Positions 14,589 to 33,850 of a DNA stretch of 37,659 bases are shown in pieces (position 1 is the first letter of the stretch; the number at the start of each line of letters is the position of its first letter). Location of the stretch: assembly GCA_016208875.1 (NCBI GenBank), contig JACQXD010000080.1:1-37659 (forward strand), in the 5' to 3' direction. The stretch is from Nitrospirota bacterium. Its GTDB lineage: Bacteria; Nitrospirota; Thermodesulfovibrionia; Thermodesulfovibrionales; UBA1546. Both the position numbers and the translations under genes were made by a program. Under the pieces are notes generated by a model, which searched no databases, was not told the DNA's origin, and saw nothing but the letters and a program-made list of their open reading frames with translations.

Positions 14589-15228
14589 AATGGAGGTTAG
14601 GAGGAATTTTAAAGTAAAAAAAATATCATGATTAATGGTGGATGAATGAATCGTGTTCTAATCAATATAAAAGGCACTGTTCAGGGTGTAGGCTTCAGAC
14701 CATTTGTCTATAATCTCGCAAAATCCATGGATCTTAAAGGGAACGTTACAAATACTACCGATGGGGTTGCCATTGACATAGAGGGTGAGGATGTATCTTC
14801 TTTTATAGAGAGGATTTCGAGAGAAGCCCCTCCGCTTTCGAAGATAAATAATATCGAGGTATTATCGCTGCCCTTTTGCGGATACGAAGACTTCGAGATA
14901 CTAAAAAGTAGTGAGAGAGGCAGTTTTACACTCCTTTCCCCTGATGTCTCAATATGCGACGATTGCCTTAGGGAAATGCTCGATAGGCACGACAGGCGTT
15001 ATCTGTATCCGTTTATAAATTGCATAAACTGCGGGCCGAGATTTACGATTACCGGTGCGATCCCATATGACAGGCATAATACCACTATGTCTGCCTTTAA
15101 GATGTGTCCTGAATGTGAAAGAGAGTATAACGATCCCGCAGATAGAAGATTCCATGCACAGCCGAATGCATGCCCTATTTGTGGACCACGGATGGAGTTT
15201 AAACTTACTAATAAGACCATAAGTAAAG

Positions 15229-15343
15229 CCCCCTCACCCTCGCCCTCTCCCGCCGGGGGAGAGGGTAAGAATATTGCCCCTCCCTTGAGGGGAGGGGATA
15301 AAGGGGAGGGTGATTTATGTGGCTTTACTAATGAACTCCTTAG
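15229..15343. repeat. REP-like repeat mosaic inside hypF
   Basis: Two GC-rich palindromes lie side by side: CCCTCTCCCGCCGGGGGAGA (about 15243-15264) and CCCCTCCCTTGAGGGGAGGG (about 15279-15298). These are followed by a partial copy of the TTACTAAG element (15325-15343, TTACTAATGAACTCCTTAG). Native hypF coding resumes right at 15343. Confidence 0.75.
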
Positions 15344-15516
15344 CGACAAATATAGAGGCAGTTGAAAGACTGAGGGCAGGGAAAAGAAGAAGCAATAAGC
15401 CGTTTGCACTCATGTCGCCCGACATAGAGACCATTGAAAAATACTGTTTAGTGTCGGAGGATGAGAAAAAAATGTTGATTTCTAATAAAAGACCGATTGT
15501 TCTCCTGAGGGAAAAA

Positions 15517-15547
15517 GATGCACGATACACGATACACGATACACGAT
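15517..15547. repeat. In-frame heptamer array 1 in hypF
   Basis: GATGCAC followed by three GATACAC units and GAT. It encodes the non-conserved DARYTIHDTRS between the YrdC motifs. The same unit occurs in the intergenic palindrome at 33752-33814. Confidence 0.85.
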
Positions 15548-15639
15548 CTTTGCCCGAGGCGGTAGCCCCAAATAATCGGTATCTTGGATTTATGCTCCCT
15601 TATACACCGTTACACTACCTTTTATTTTATTATCCGTTA

Positions 15640-15669
15640 ACTCAGAACTCAAAACTCAAAACTCAAAAC
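15640..15669. repeat. In-frame heptamer array 2 in hypF
   Basis: ACTCAGA plus three ACTCAAA units, then ACT. It encodes TQNSKLKTQN, not a conserved part of HypF, just before the conserved GLVMTSGNLSEEPI. Confidence 0.85.
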
Positions 15670-16157
15670 TTTAGTGGCCTTGTCATGACGAGCGGGAATC
15701 TTTCCGAAGAACCGATTGTTATATCTAATGATGAGGCGGTTTCAAAACTTTCCGGTATTGTTGATGCGGTCTTAATTCATAACAGGGATATTTTTATGCG
15801 TACCGACGATTCCGTTGTAACGCAACACATTCTGTCCGGCAAGAATAGGCCGTTATTTATCCGTCGGTCTCGCGGATATGCACCTGAGCCGATAGCCTTA
15901 AATGAGGAGGGTCCCGAGGTGCTCGGCTGCGGCGCCGATATTAAGAATACATTTACACTTACAAAAGGCAGTTATGCAATCCCGAGCCAACATATAGGAG
16001 ATATGGAAAACTATGAGACGCTGAAATTTTTTGAAGAAAGCCTTGAGAATCTTAAAAAGGTTTACCGCATAAGTCCCGAGGCTATAGGCTACGACCTCCA
16101 TCCGAATTATCTGTCAACGAAATGGGCACTGAGCCAGAACTCAGAACAAGCCGATTG

Positions 16158-16218
16158 TGGAATGCGGAATGTGGAATGCGGAATTAAATCCAAAATCCAA
16201 AATCCAAAATCAGAAATC
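16158..16218. repeat. In-frame double heptamer array 3 in hypF
   Basis: Four units of (T/C)GGAAT(G/T) are followed directly by three AAATCCA, one AAATCAG and AAATC. It inserts about 20 residues (CGMRNVECGIKSKIQNPKSE) before the conserved FGIQHHYAH motif. Confidence 0.85.
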
Positions 16219-17080
16219 TTATTATTTGGTATCCAGCATCATTATGCACATATTGCATCGGTAATGGCGGAAAACGGCATAAAGCGGAAGGTTATGGGTA
16301 TTGCCTTCGACGGTACAGGTTATGGGACGGATGGAAATCTCTGGGGAAGCGAGTTTTTGATAGCCGATGTGGATGATTTTAAAAGGGCAGGACATTTTAA
16401 ATATATTCCGTTGCCCGGAGGTGAGACCGCCATTAAAGAGCCGTGGAGGATTGCAGTGAGCTATATCAGGGCAATGGCGGGGGATGAGACTATGCACTAT
16501 CTTAGTTCCATAGGATTTGTTGAGAAATACGGGAATGAAGGCATAGATAATATCCTTAAGATCATTGATAACAGAGATTTTTCACCCTTATCGTCGGGAG
16601 CCGGGAGACTCTTTGATGCCATATCGGCTATCCTCGGAATATGCGACAGAAATACGTTTGAAGGCGAGGCTGCAATATCGCTCGAATCCTTTACTATTGA
16701 TGATAATGATGAGGACTATCCTGTAGACATAATTTTTAAGGAAAAGATGGAGGTAGATTTTTCTATGACTATATTCCGGCTTATAGAGGATTTAAAGCGT
16801 GGTGTAGATAAAGAAATTATTTCTACAAAGTTTCATAATACCGTTGTGACGGTTATCGAGAGGGTTATTCGGAAACTCGGTTTAATTCATCGTCTGTACG
16901 ACGTAATTTTAAGCGGAGGGGTTTTCCAGAATAGGTATCTCCTTAAGAATACGATTGACAGGCTTAAGTCATCCGGGATGAACGTCTATATCAATGAAAA
17001 AGTACCATGTAACGACGCCGGTATTTCGCTCGGTCAGGCGTACCTCGTAAGAGAAAGGATGAAGCAGGATTCAAGATAGG

Positions 17081-19233: not shown

Positions 19234-20688
19234 ATGGTGAGCATTTTGGTTAGAAGAATTTTTTACACGGGTATTTTTATATCATGGATTATCGTCATGG
19301 TGATCCTTCTGTCCGGACACTACGGTCCGGATCGGAGTATAACCTCAACCGCCGCCTCTATAGGTTTCATTCCGGCAGAACTATTTGAAGAACAGTGGAT
19401 GGGGGTTTATTATAACGGTGAAAAGATAGGTTACTCGAACAGAAAGACCGAAAAGAAAGACGATGGATATAAGATTTCAGAACTAATGAAGATGAAACTT
19501 AATGTTATGAATATTCAAAAAGAGGTCGAGACTGTGATCAATGCCTATCTCGATCCGGATTTGGGGCTTAAGTCATTTGATCTTTCGCTCCGGTCGGATG
19601 CTAATATGGACATCAGAGGTAAAATAGAGGGTAAAAATCTCAGGGTATCTGTTGATACATTCGGTATAAAATCCGAACAGATCATTGCTTTGAAGGAAAA
19701 ACCGTTCCTGAACATTTCTATGATCCCTAATATCCTCAAAGAAGGGCTTACCCCCGGAAAAAAAATCAGCATGATGCTGGTAGACCCTTCGACACTCAGC
19801 CAGGAAAATGCATTCATAGAGATCATAGGCAAAGAGAAGATAATGGCATTGGGCTTAAAGCAGGATGCATTTAAGTTCAGAGTCTTGTTTAAGAGTATGG
19901 AATTTTTTAGCTGGCTTACGGAGAAGGGTGAGGTATTAAGAGAGGAAAGTCCGATGGGTTTTACATTGATCAGGGAGACTAAAGAGACTGCAATGCAGAT
20001 CGGAAAGCCATCGTTAGACCTTATTGCACAGGTTGCCGTGCCTTTTAATATAAAGCTGCCGCAGGATACAGCATATCTTAAAATAAGGCTTTCCGGGATC
20101 GATCTTAAGGGTTTTGAACTTGATGGCGGCAGGCAGAGCCTTAAAGGAGATGTGCTTGAGATAAGAAAAGAAGCTATCAGCTATCAGCCATCAGCCATTA
20201 GCCCAGAATCAAAAGGCGAGTACCTCAAGGATACCATGTTCATCCAATCAAAGGACCCGCAGATCGTTTCTCTATCAAAGGAGATAGTTGGCGATGAGAA
20301 GGACAGGTTAAAGTCGGCAAGGCTGATTTACGAATGGGTATATAGAAACATCGAGAAGGTTCCCACAATAACAATTCCTACGGCAATAGAGGTACTTAAG
20401 ACAAAACGCGGTGACTGCAATGAACATACAACGCTATTTACTGCATTATCCCGTGCCGTTGGGATACCGACACGCATTGCGATCGGGCTTACATATAAGG
20501 ACGGATTTTTTTATTACCATGCATGGCCTGAGATATTCGTAGATAGGTGGATTGCTATTGATCCCACACTCGGTCAATTCCCTGCAGACGCATCACATAT
20601 ACGGATCATTACGGGCGATATGGATAAACAGATACAGATAATGTCGGTAATCGGAAAGATCAAGATCGAGGGACTGGGGTATCGGTAA
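19234..20688 (+). CDS. Membrane-anchored transglutaminase-like protein
   Basis: 484 residues. N-terminal transmembrane helix (FYTGIFISWIIVMVILLSG), a long beta-rich periplasmic domain (about 55-300), then a transglutaminase-like cysteine-protease core with Cys in KRGDCNEHTTLF, His in YYHAWPEIF and Asp in WIAIDPTLGQ. The triad is complete, so activity (peptidase or crosslinking) is plausible. A heptamer array inserts AISYQPSAISPE between the two regions. The next gene starts at the base after its stop, so the two form an operon. Confidence 0.85.
   Translation: MVSILVRRIFYTGIFISWIIVMVILLSGHYGPDRSITSTAASIGFIPAELFEEQWMGVYYNGEKIGYSNRKTEKKDDGYKISELMKMKLNVMNIQKEVETVINAYLDPDLGLKSFDLSLRSDANMDIRGKIEGKNLRVSVDTFGIKSEQIIALKEKPFLNISMIPNILKEGLTPGKKISMMLVDPSTLSQENAFIEIIGKEKIMALGLKQDAFKFRVLFKSMEFFSWLTEKGEVLREESPMGFTLIRETKETAMQIGKPSLDLIAQVAVPFNIKLPQDTAYLKIRLSGIDLKGFELDGGRQSLKGDVLEIRKEAISYQPSAISPESKGEYLKDTMFIQSKDPQIVSLSKEIVGDEKDRLKSARLIYEWVYRNIEKVPTITIPTAIEVLKTKRGDCNEHTTLFTALSRAVGIPTRIAIGLTYKDGFFYYHAWPEIFVDRWIAIDPTLGQFPADASHIRIITGDMDKQIQIMSVIGKIKIEGLGYR
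20172..20204. repeat. In-frame heptamer array in the transglutaminase gene
   Basis: Units AGCTATC, AGCTATC, AGCCATC, AGCCATT, AGCC encode SYQPSAIS in a linker between the N-terminal beta domain and the catalytic domain. Confidence 0.85.
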
Positions 20689-21569: not shown

Positions 21570-22599
21570 AATGACAAACCCTTCTCGATGCGATCCAACA
21601 GACCCCTGAGTTTCCGATCTTTCTGCAACTTCTCCAGCAACCGTTTTCTTCCTTGGCTCACCGTGCTGTAGTCTACATCAAATACCCTGCCGATTTCTAC
21701 CCCTTTGAGCCCTCCAATTCTATAAAGCACATCCATCGTCAACTGCCTTAAGCCTCCTCTTTGTGTCTTTATTTCTTCCAAGTTTTTCCCCGTCTCTTTT
21801 TCTATTGCCCTTATTATTTCTTCTTTTGCACGATATCTCTGTACCTCCCTAAGAGGCGGACATTCCCTGTCTTTTTTGCCCTTTATAATATTTCTCTTTA
21901 TCCATTCAACAAACGCATCCCCGCCTATTATGCTCTGTCCTATTACCTTTTCTTTTATCTCAAGACCGGATTCTATATCAGCTTTTATCCTTTTTTCGTA
22001 TCCCTTCCGCCCTTCGTCGCTATCGCCTCCATATTCCCCCAATACCGGATCGTAATCTATAAGCCCTTCCTTCTTCTTTTTGTTTATGTACCCCTGAAGA
22101 CTGCTCCACTTGTAATCCATAAGATATTCAATCTTTTCTTTATCGCTCTTTTGTCTTAAGGTCTTTGTACGTACAGGATTTAGGTGTATGTACCTTGACA
22201 GCACTGAAAGATATTCGTTTTTATCAACTACAAGGCTTTTGTACCTGCCCTGATACAAGTGCCCCGCCCTCTTATGCCTGCGATTGAAATATCCGGTATA
22301 GGTTATATTGAAATGCCGCATGAATTCTCCGAGGTTGCCTAAAGGTGTTTCGATTAGAAGATGGAAGTGGTTATTCATCAGGACATAGCTGTAAAGTTTT
22401 ATATTGTACGTCTTTCGGGAACGCATTAGAATTTCAAGAAATACCGTACGGTCTTTATCGTCTCTGAATATTTCTTTTCTCTCGTTACCCCGGCAGGTTA
22501 CATGGTAAGCTGCTCCCGCATATTGTATCCTCAATGGTCTCGCCATATAAGTTTATATCATGTCAAACTTTATTTTGTCAAGATTAAAGAATTGACCCC
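21553..22599 (-). mobile_element. RAYT-type transposase element bounded by 14-bp inverted repeats
   Basis: A perfect inverted repeat flanks the transposase gene: GGGGTCAATTCTTT at 21553-21566 and AAAGAATTGACCCC at 22586-22599. The right end is followed by a cluster of ATTGACCCCAGGAGTAC copies. The transposase stop lies within the left repeat. HUH/Y1 REP-associated transposases often occur with such REP units. Confidence 0.7.
21566..22546 (-). CDS. REP-associated tyrosine transposase (Y1_Tnp/RAYT) with C-terminal HTH
   Basis: 326 residues. Starts with the hallmark MARPLRIQYAGAAYHVTCRG. The HUH metal motif is NNHFHLLIETP, followed by the FMRHFN helix, the GHLYQGRYKS loop and the catalytic-Tyr helix SRYIHLNPVRTK. 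The C-terminal 120 residues include a DnaA-like HTH region (IRAIEKETGKNLEEIKTQRG, then GRVFDVDYSTVSQGRKR), an extension seen in a subset of these transposases. The enzyme would cut and join single-stranded DNA at REP hairpins. The frame is intact. Confidence 0.92.
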   Translation of the reverse strand: MARPLRIQYAGAAYHVTCRGNERKEIFRDDKDRTVFLEILMRSRKTYNIKLYSYVLMNNHFHLLIETPLGNLGEFMRHFNITYTGYFNRRHKRAGHLYQGRYKSLVVDKNEYLSVLSRYIHLNPVRTKTLRQKSDKEKIEYLMDYKWSSLQGYINKKKKEGLIDYDPVLGEYGGDSDEGRKGYEKRIKADIESGLEIKEKVIGQSIIGGDAFVEWIKRNIIKGKKDRECPPLREVQRYRAKEEIIRAIEKETGKNLEEIKTQRGGLRQLTMDVLYRIGGLKGVEIGRVFDVDYSTVSQGRKRLLEKLQKDRKLRGLLDRIEKGLSL

Positions 22600-22677
22600 A
22601 GGAGTACAGACCGAATTGACCCCAGGAGTACCAGTTCCCCAGGAGTACCAGTTCCAGGAGTACCAGGAGTACAGGAA
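22590..22677. repeat. Direct repeats next to the transposase (ATTGACCCCAGGAGTAC)
   Basis: Two full copies of GAATTGACCCCAGGAGTAC (from about 22590 and 22614) are followed by shortened copies of CCAGGAGTACCAGTTCC. They extend the right end of the RAYT element. Confidence 0.75.
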
Positions 22678-24693: not shown

Positions 24694-24704
24694 ATAATAA
24701 ATCC

Positions 24705-24800
24705 CAATAGCCAAATTTCAAGCTCCAAATAATTACCAATAACCAAATTTCAAACACCAAATAATTACCAATAACCAAATTTCAAACACCAAATAATTGG
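24705..24800. repeat. Three tandem 32-bp repeats
   Basis: Copies at 24705-24736, 24737-24768 and 24769-24800 share CAATAACCAAATTTCAAACA. The last two are near-identical. The first abuts the radical SAM start codon. There is no spacer between units. Confidence 0.9.
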
Positions 24801-31544: not shown

Positions 31545-31610
31545 ATGATATCAAAGTTGAATCTTCAGATAAGATCAATCCTTATGATTGCCCTTGTTCT
31601 TCTTTTTGCC
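31545..31610 (+). repeat. First copy of a 66-bp duplicated chemoreceptor 5' end
   Basis: An exact copy of 31863-31928, starting at ATG and coding MISKLNLQIRSILMIALV and four more residues. It is followed not by the rest of the gene but by a repeat mosaic. It has no visible ribosome site. It flanks the mosaic as a direct repeat with the second copy. Confidence 0.95.
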
Positions 31611-31611
31611 T

Positions 31612-31705
31612 TCATCTGCGGGTTCAATTTTGTAAATTGAACTTCATCTGCGGGTTCAATTTTGTAAATTGAACTCATCTGCGGGTTCAATTTTGTAAAT
31701 TGAAC
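31612..31705. repeat. Three tandem 31-bp hairpin units
   Basis: Identical copies at 31612-31642, 31644-31674 and 31675-31705. Each contains GTTCAATTTTGTAAATTGAAC (stem 8 bp, loop 5 bases) preceded by TCATCTGCGG. The first and second are separated by one base. Confidence 0.95.
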
Positions 31706-33745: not shown

Positions 33746-33751
33746 TCACAT

Positions 33752-33850
33752 GATGCACGATACAAGATACACGATGCAAGATGCACGATGCAAGATACAC
33801 GATACAGGATAAAAGAATCTCATGAATCATGCATCATGAATCGTGCATCA
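33752..33850. repeat. Heptamer palindrome after the chemoreceptor
   Basis: Nine successive 7-bp units of type GAT(G/A)CA(C/A/G) occupy 33752-33814. The right side holds inverted versions (ATGAATCATGCATCATGAAT). The outermost 11 bp TGATGCACGAT (33751-33761) pair with ATCGTGCATCA (33840-33850). This lies directly upstream of hflX. Confidence 0.9.

Follow-up and report, generated by a model that had tools for sequence, protein, structure and literature searches.

Heptanucleotide repeat arrays in hypF as probable members of a genome-wide repeat population in uncultured Nitrospirota

How do tandem arrays with a 7-bp unit come to lie in frame inside the gene of a conserved enzyme, and what retains them there? 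This question is raised by the hypF gene in a 37,659-bp stretch of DNA (the window) from a Nitrospirota bacterium (GenBank assembly GCA_016208875.1, contig JACQXD010000080.1), which corresponds to contig 201 in a genome of 2.93 Mb. The gene stands in the order hypA, hypB, hypF, hypD, and the nearest named hypF sequences, with about 70% protein identity, come from Nitrospirae and Thermodesulfovibrionales metagenome genomes. Our preferred answer, to which we assign a probability of roughly two in three, is that the hypF arrays belong to a population of heptanucleotide repeats that is genome-wide and specific to the lineage and that would arise by slippage or template switching in a 7-bp register, be dispersed as hairpins and be filtered by the reading frame.

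The arrays in the window were located with Tandem Repeats Finder and an exact-match scan. Four of them, all on the forward strand, sit in frame and free of stops within the 3' part of hypF. The first, GATGCAC(GATACAC)3GAT or (GATACAC)4.4, occupies positions 15517-15547 and is the orphan left arm of a hairpin family with the form (GATNCAN)4-loop-(NTGNATC)4. The second, (AACTCAA)4.6, lies at 15639-15670, and in the relative L011 the same site is occupied by a degenerate AACTCNN array. The third, (GGAATGC/GGAATGT)4 at 16156-16184, and the fourth, (AAATCCA)3.7 at 16186-16211, are respectively the left and the right arm of a pair that belongs to a second family of inverted pairs. Such an inverted pair recurs at three more loci (C172, C198 and C226), inside open reading frames (ORFs). 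When folded as RNA, the region 16156-16218 yields a weak structure, and no hairpin was obtained for the arrays at 15517 and 15639. A sequence-only reading of this DNA had already reported exact 7-bp arrays at these places, and in this it was right. Its count of three must be raised to four, as the third site consists of two adjacent arrays. Its description of the arrays as DNA-level heptads between conserved HypF motifs also holds.

The same type of repeat was found throughout the genome. A sample of 60 contigs chosen by number (586 kb) contained 39 period-7 arrays, compared to 19 for the periods 4-6 and 8-13 combined. Since a Markov-1 control of 586 kb contained no period-7 array, chance is excluded, and the frequency of the arrays, on which the sequence-only reading had let its proposal depend, lies above random expectation. 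Depending on the minimum ORF length, 31 or 32 of the 39 arrays fall in ORFs, which make up 84% of the bases. The ORF caller was simple and the host ORFs were therefore checked against known families, with matches for 18 of the 20 tested. The hosts include the genes for methionyl-tRNA synthetase (metG), homoserine dehydrogenase (hom), EngA (der), QueA and shikimate dehydrogenase (aroE), as well as RecJ, PrmC, KdsB and RsmE. The earlier view of an insertion oddity in one gene is thus too narrow: heptads are genome-wide and mostly in ORFs, recJ is a hot spot as well, and dispersed hairpins contain several of the arrays as arms. In these uncultured Nitrospirota, the arrays reflect a widespread and little-studied mutation process rather than a peculiarity of hypF.

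Heptad density varies between lineages. Three Nitrospirota genomes carry 67, 74 and 62 arrays per Mb. A fourth, represented by one contig, has 5 per Mb, its sole array being in hypF, and in four further Nitrospirota genomes no period-7 array was detected in 80 kb each. The units themselves are not random. TCA or TGA is present in about 65% of the coding units (from hypF and other ORFs), compared to 21% of random 7-mers, and this richness is not accounted for by the avoidance of sense stops alone. Moreover, unit identity between genera amounts to 1.7%, compared to a mean of 0.6% under a Markov-2 null, which was exceeded in 200 of 200 simulations. A search of plasmids with heptad queries gave no match, for which the low-complexity filter is a possible cause.

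Part of the population is organized as inverted pairs. A partner within 90 bp was found for 12 of 34 own-genome arrays (1-4 in reversed or complemented controls) and for 5 of 41 arrays in the hypF genes of relatives (1-3 in controls). The family (GATNCAN)4-GATAAAAAATC-(NTGNATC)4 gave 43 matches, a few of them overlapping, which are located both within and between genes, in a search that covered own-genome sequence partly selected for hypF-like repeats. Several of these hairpin copies fold better than shuffled sequences, and the copy in hom does so by far (z -9.2). A full-length intergenic member is also present in the window (33748-33850, forward strand), with eight left-arm and four right-arm heptads and a fold z of -3.2. 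Compensatory pairing between the hairpin arms was considered as well and was rejected, the swap test being negative.

Such hairpins could have been inserted ready-made by a specific transposition system, for example by the Y1 or RAYT-type (REP-associated tyrosine transposase; REP, repetitive extragenic palindrome) transposases of the genome. The arrays would then be remains of these insertions and slippage would be secondary. The occurrence of one hairpin family at about 40 places would be in line with this, as would the composite pair, the order of which is unchanged at several loci, and the five matches to the Y1 transposase family (PF01797) in the genome, one of which lies within the window. 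However, the hairpins lack any established common target site or terminal motif, and the units of the arms are variable at two of their seven positions. The length steps of 21 bp and the in-place replacement of unit classes described below are also unlike simple transposition. We consider this origin of the arrays unlikely.

Turnover was observed at one site of RecJ, between ITDHHEP and LPEAVAVINPKL, where the unit class is replaced in place. Each of the nine readable close-group genomes, the window genome included, carries an insert here, and at least six unit classes are represented among them. The insert is absent from one genome of the same family (L241) and from more distant relatives. 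The recJ genes of L223 and L225 are 88.7% identical and yet differ in unit class, and between those of L225 and L226 (88% identical) three right-arm units have all changed together. For most relatives, the folds predicted for this site show no clear advantage over those of shuffled sequences. It is conceivable, though doubtful, that a replication or repair activity dedicated to this task, working in a fixed 7-bp register, writes heptad blocks, copies them between hairpin arms and rewrites them at particular sites. Were this so, the linker length and the reading frame of HypF and RecJ would be continually edited, with blocks in genes as well as outside of them.

For hypF, the loci of 80 Nitrospirota relatives were compared. 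Within the gene 38 arrays were counted in 185 kb, compared to 10 in 1.02 Mb of flanking sequence, a 21-fold higher density (p about 1e-22). Alignment with these relatives, as suggested by the sequence-only reading, revealed precise sites that hold an array in some relatives and lack it in others, and the pattern that would have spoken against it (the same residues conserved in relatives without the heptad period) was not seen. The arrays recur at residues 186, 242-253, 284-294, 345-356, 450-480 and 634-641 of a composite HypF, with units that differ among species. They measure 19-37 bp, and up to five can be present in a single hypF. In recJ, 10 of 28 loci contain arrays. The predicted HypF structure of L012, a model of moderate quality (mean 73.7, 25 sequences), has four arrays at about residues 287-293, 333-344, 410-419 and 517-527, all of them within or overlapping loop segments with a pLDDT (predicted local distance difference test) below 50. 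The solved HypF structure 3vth is without array insertions. The same linkers also house other repeats, namely GGGGGG-type palindromes and GATTCCTCG...CGGAATGAC elements. The former lie in frame at heptad sites of HypF in L010, L031, L050 and L073, and in L010 they encode the peptide PPIPPLVRGG. hypF and recJ are probably hot spots owing to their tolerant linkers.

The reading frame leaves its mark on these arrays. Among 42 non-redundant hypF arrays, a stop occurs in the sense repeat of none and in the antisense repeat of 36, which bears out the proposal that only stop-free units reside in frame. The least common multiple of 7 and 3 is 21, and the site at HypF residues 245-253 differs between related species in exact 21-bp steps, corresponding to three units: it measures 117 bp in L011 and L014, 138 bp in L012, 159 bp in L101 and 180 bp in L009. 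A change of a single unit puts the gene out of frame, as two natural alleles demonstrate. In the hypF of L013 the site is 146 bp long, compared to 153 bp in an in-frame relative, and the missing heptad lies inside (ATTCAAG)4. The recJ of L243 has 92 bp where the window genome has 99 bp, again one heptad off, inside (GGAATTC)3. A comparison of the genomes G001 and G006 over about 25 kb of alignable sequence, in which the counts are small and some long gaps are artefacts, gave three indels of 7 bp and two of 21 bp in coding sequence, and three of 7 bp, one of 14 bp and one of 21 bp in intergenic sequence.

The two off-frame alleles, a unit that shifts the frame every time and the strong hot spot in hypF might also be expected of contingency loci, in which the slippage of single units turns hypF (and recJ) off and on, as a switch of hydrogenase maturation under selection. 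Heptanucleotide phase variation is known for Haemophilus HMW1A (PMC8262952). However, recJ, metG, aroE, der and queA are hosts too and would make a poor set of phase-variable genes, one gene may carry up to five arrays, and the arrays are short. Adaptive phase variation is possible, and it is disfavored because the host genes are such a mixed set, so that we hold this explanation to be improbable. Least likely by far is that chance, assembly error or a protein-level (coiled-coil) repetition produced the arrays: the data are short-read metagenome assemblies, but the Markov control gave none, the arrays fit within a single sequencing read and occur at identical sites across many independent assemblies, and a coiled coil was rejected because 7 bp of DNA, not 7 residues, is the period.

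The preferred reading, a heptad population arising in a 7-bp register and filtered by the reading frame, builds on what was observed directly, i.e. the period and location of the arrays, the orientation filter, the step size at one site, the off-frame alleles and the turnover. A replication process in a 7-bp register, by slippage and by template switching between hairpin arms, would expand, homogenize and replace the units. Hairpin copies would then be dispersed across the genome by some route. Finally, selection on the reading frame and on the protein fold would retain only those copies that are in frame, stop-free and located in loops. Neutral tolerance in linkers would suffice for this, and a benefit to the cell would not be needed.

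Several observations weigh against this reading. Most arrays have no inverted partner, and hairpins therefore fail to account for the majority. Compensatory evolution of the GATNCAN arms was not detected, as in the swap test an arm's own partner was no better than others. Length differences of 11 residues at HypF sites are as frequent as multiples of 7, so that length does not always change by three heptads. The unit vocabulary shared between genera is not explained by simple slippage of random local sequence. Lastly, mobility of the arrays was not seen directly, and nearly all data are metagenome assemblies.

The hypF of the window is split over two frames, a point that the sequence-only reading had missed. 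An ORF at 14646-15365 encodes the 5' part, with the acylphosphatase and zinc-finger part (TIGR00143 positions 1-187), and an ORF at 15310-17079 encodes the 3' part, with the remainder of YrdC and the Kae1-like part (positions 220-739). Both are on the forward strand. The gene is broken by a 140-bp dispersed element (15204-15343, forward strand, with the ends CTAATAAG...CTTAG) and an adjacent deletion. What is missing beside the element corresponds to TIGR00143 positions 188-219 and includes the conserved KGLGGFH stretch of YrdC. About a dozen near-identical copies of it exist across the genome. Judging from the TA that flanks other copies on both sides and from their matching ends, it resembles a miniature inverted-repeat transposable element (MITE) of the Tc1/mariner type; in the hypF copy the right-hand TA is missing. 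A further copy occupies the loop between two inverted heptad arms within an ORF (C54, L133:159-297). No second hypF was found in the genome with the 3' part as query. Because the downstream arrays stay in frame and without stops, the gene was either broken recently or assembled wrongly (a misassembly at the repeat).

The standout periods of the window are 7 and its multiples 14 and 28, with one 15/17/24-bp block and one 21-bp duplication as exceptions. The 15/17/24-bp repeats (22589-22676) are directly beside a Y1-type transposase gene (PF01797; 22184-22513, reverse strand), and the two together are possibly a RAYT with its own repeats. A perfect 21-bp tandem duplication (CAAAACATCCAAAGTGAAGGA) was found at 604-645 within ORF 166-945. 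At 20172-20203 a degenerate AGCCATC heptad array lies in ORF 19234-20688, for which no NCBIfam family matched at 1e-10. Two unrelated tandem repeats, at 31610-31705 and 24696-24798, each have three copies with an exact 32-bp period.

The frequency of the arrays in genes means that the reading frame serves as a recorder, and the mechanism behind heptamers becomes a testable question in this lineage. The 21-bp steps, the stop-free orientation, the one-unit frameshift alleles and the in-place class replacement can discriminate between slippage, template switching and transposition. The arrays supply conserved enzymes with variation in their linkers, and annotators should expect gene frameshifts from them in these genomes.

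Work from 2007 on, according to its citation in PMC4692102, has noted that heptameric repeats are over-represented in bacteria, without giving a mechanism. In the cases described so far, the repeats are mainly found between genes (PMC4692102, PMC4679880). No open-access report was found that joins over-represented heptads, complementary hairpin arms with class replacement, and in-frame residence in Nitrospirota protein genes. The short tandemly repeated repetitive (STRR) heptanucleotides of cyanobacteria and Xanthomonas, such as GGGGA(T/C)T in Nostoc and GGGAATC in Xanthomonas (PMC4692102), share exact 7-bp units, many dispersed loci and short arrays of often about four units. In contrast to STRR, which are mainly non-coding, most Nitrospirota arrays lie in ORFs (31 of 39) and most units are not G-rich. 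The four-unit arrays here mostly consist of units unable to form G-quadruplexes, and AATCCCC, the reverse complement of GGGGATT, occurs in the hypF of L012.

The P6b stem of the Nostoc trnL group I intron, with the heptad classes TDNGATT and NNTGAGT (PMC4476775, PMC3488679), also has complementary heptad arms that form a hairpin, which applies here to part of the arrays, such as the GATNCAN family. Units of 7 nt are gained and lost in both, and the unit class is swapped at a fixed site (PMC4476775), here in RecJ. However, P6b belongs to one cyanobacterial intron, and the Nitrospirota arrays are found in many protein genes (hypF, recJ, queA and others). The Beggiatoaceae TAACTGA repeats (PMC4679880) are likewise abundant direct repeats of a heptamer. 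Unlike the Nitrospirota arrays, they have a single unit, are mostly intergenic upstream of start codons and are rare in ORFs. A frame-shifting unit and alleles that are one unit off are shared with phase-variable contingency loci, and a Y1 transposase in the same genome with the REP and REPIN (REP doublet forming a hairpin) sequences mobilized by RAYT. The Rickettsia palindromic elements (PMC10969869) likewise are repetitive, partly palindromic DNA residing in frame within unrelated housekeeping genes. They measure about 150 bp and encode conserved peptides, whereas the Nitrospirota arrays are mostly 19-40 bp long, or hairpins of about 60-160 bp, and comprise many unit classes.
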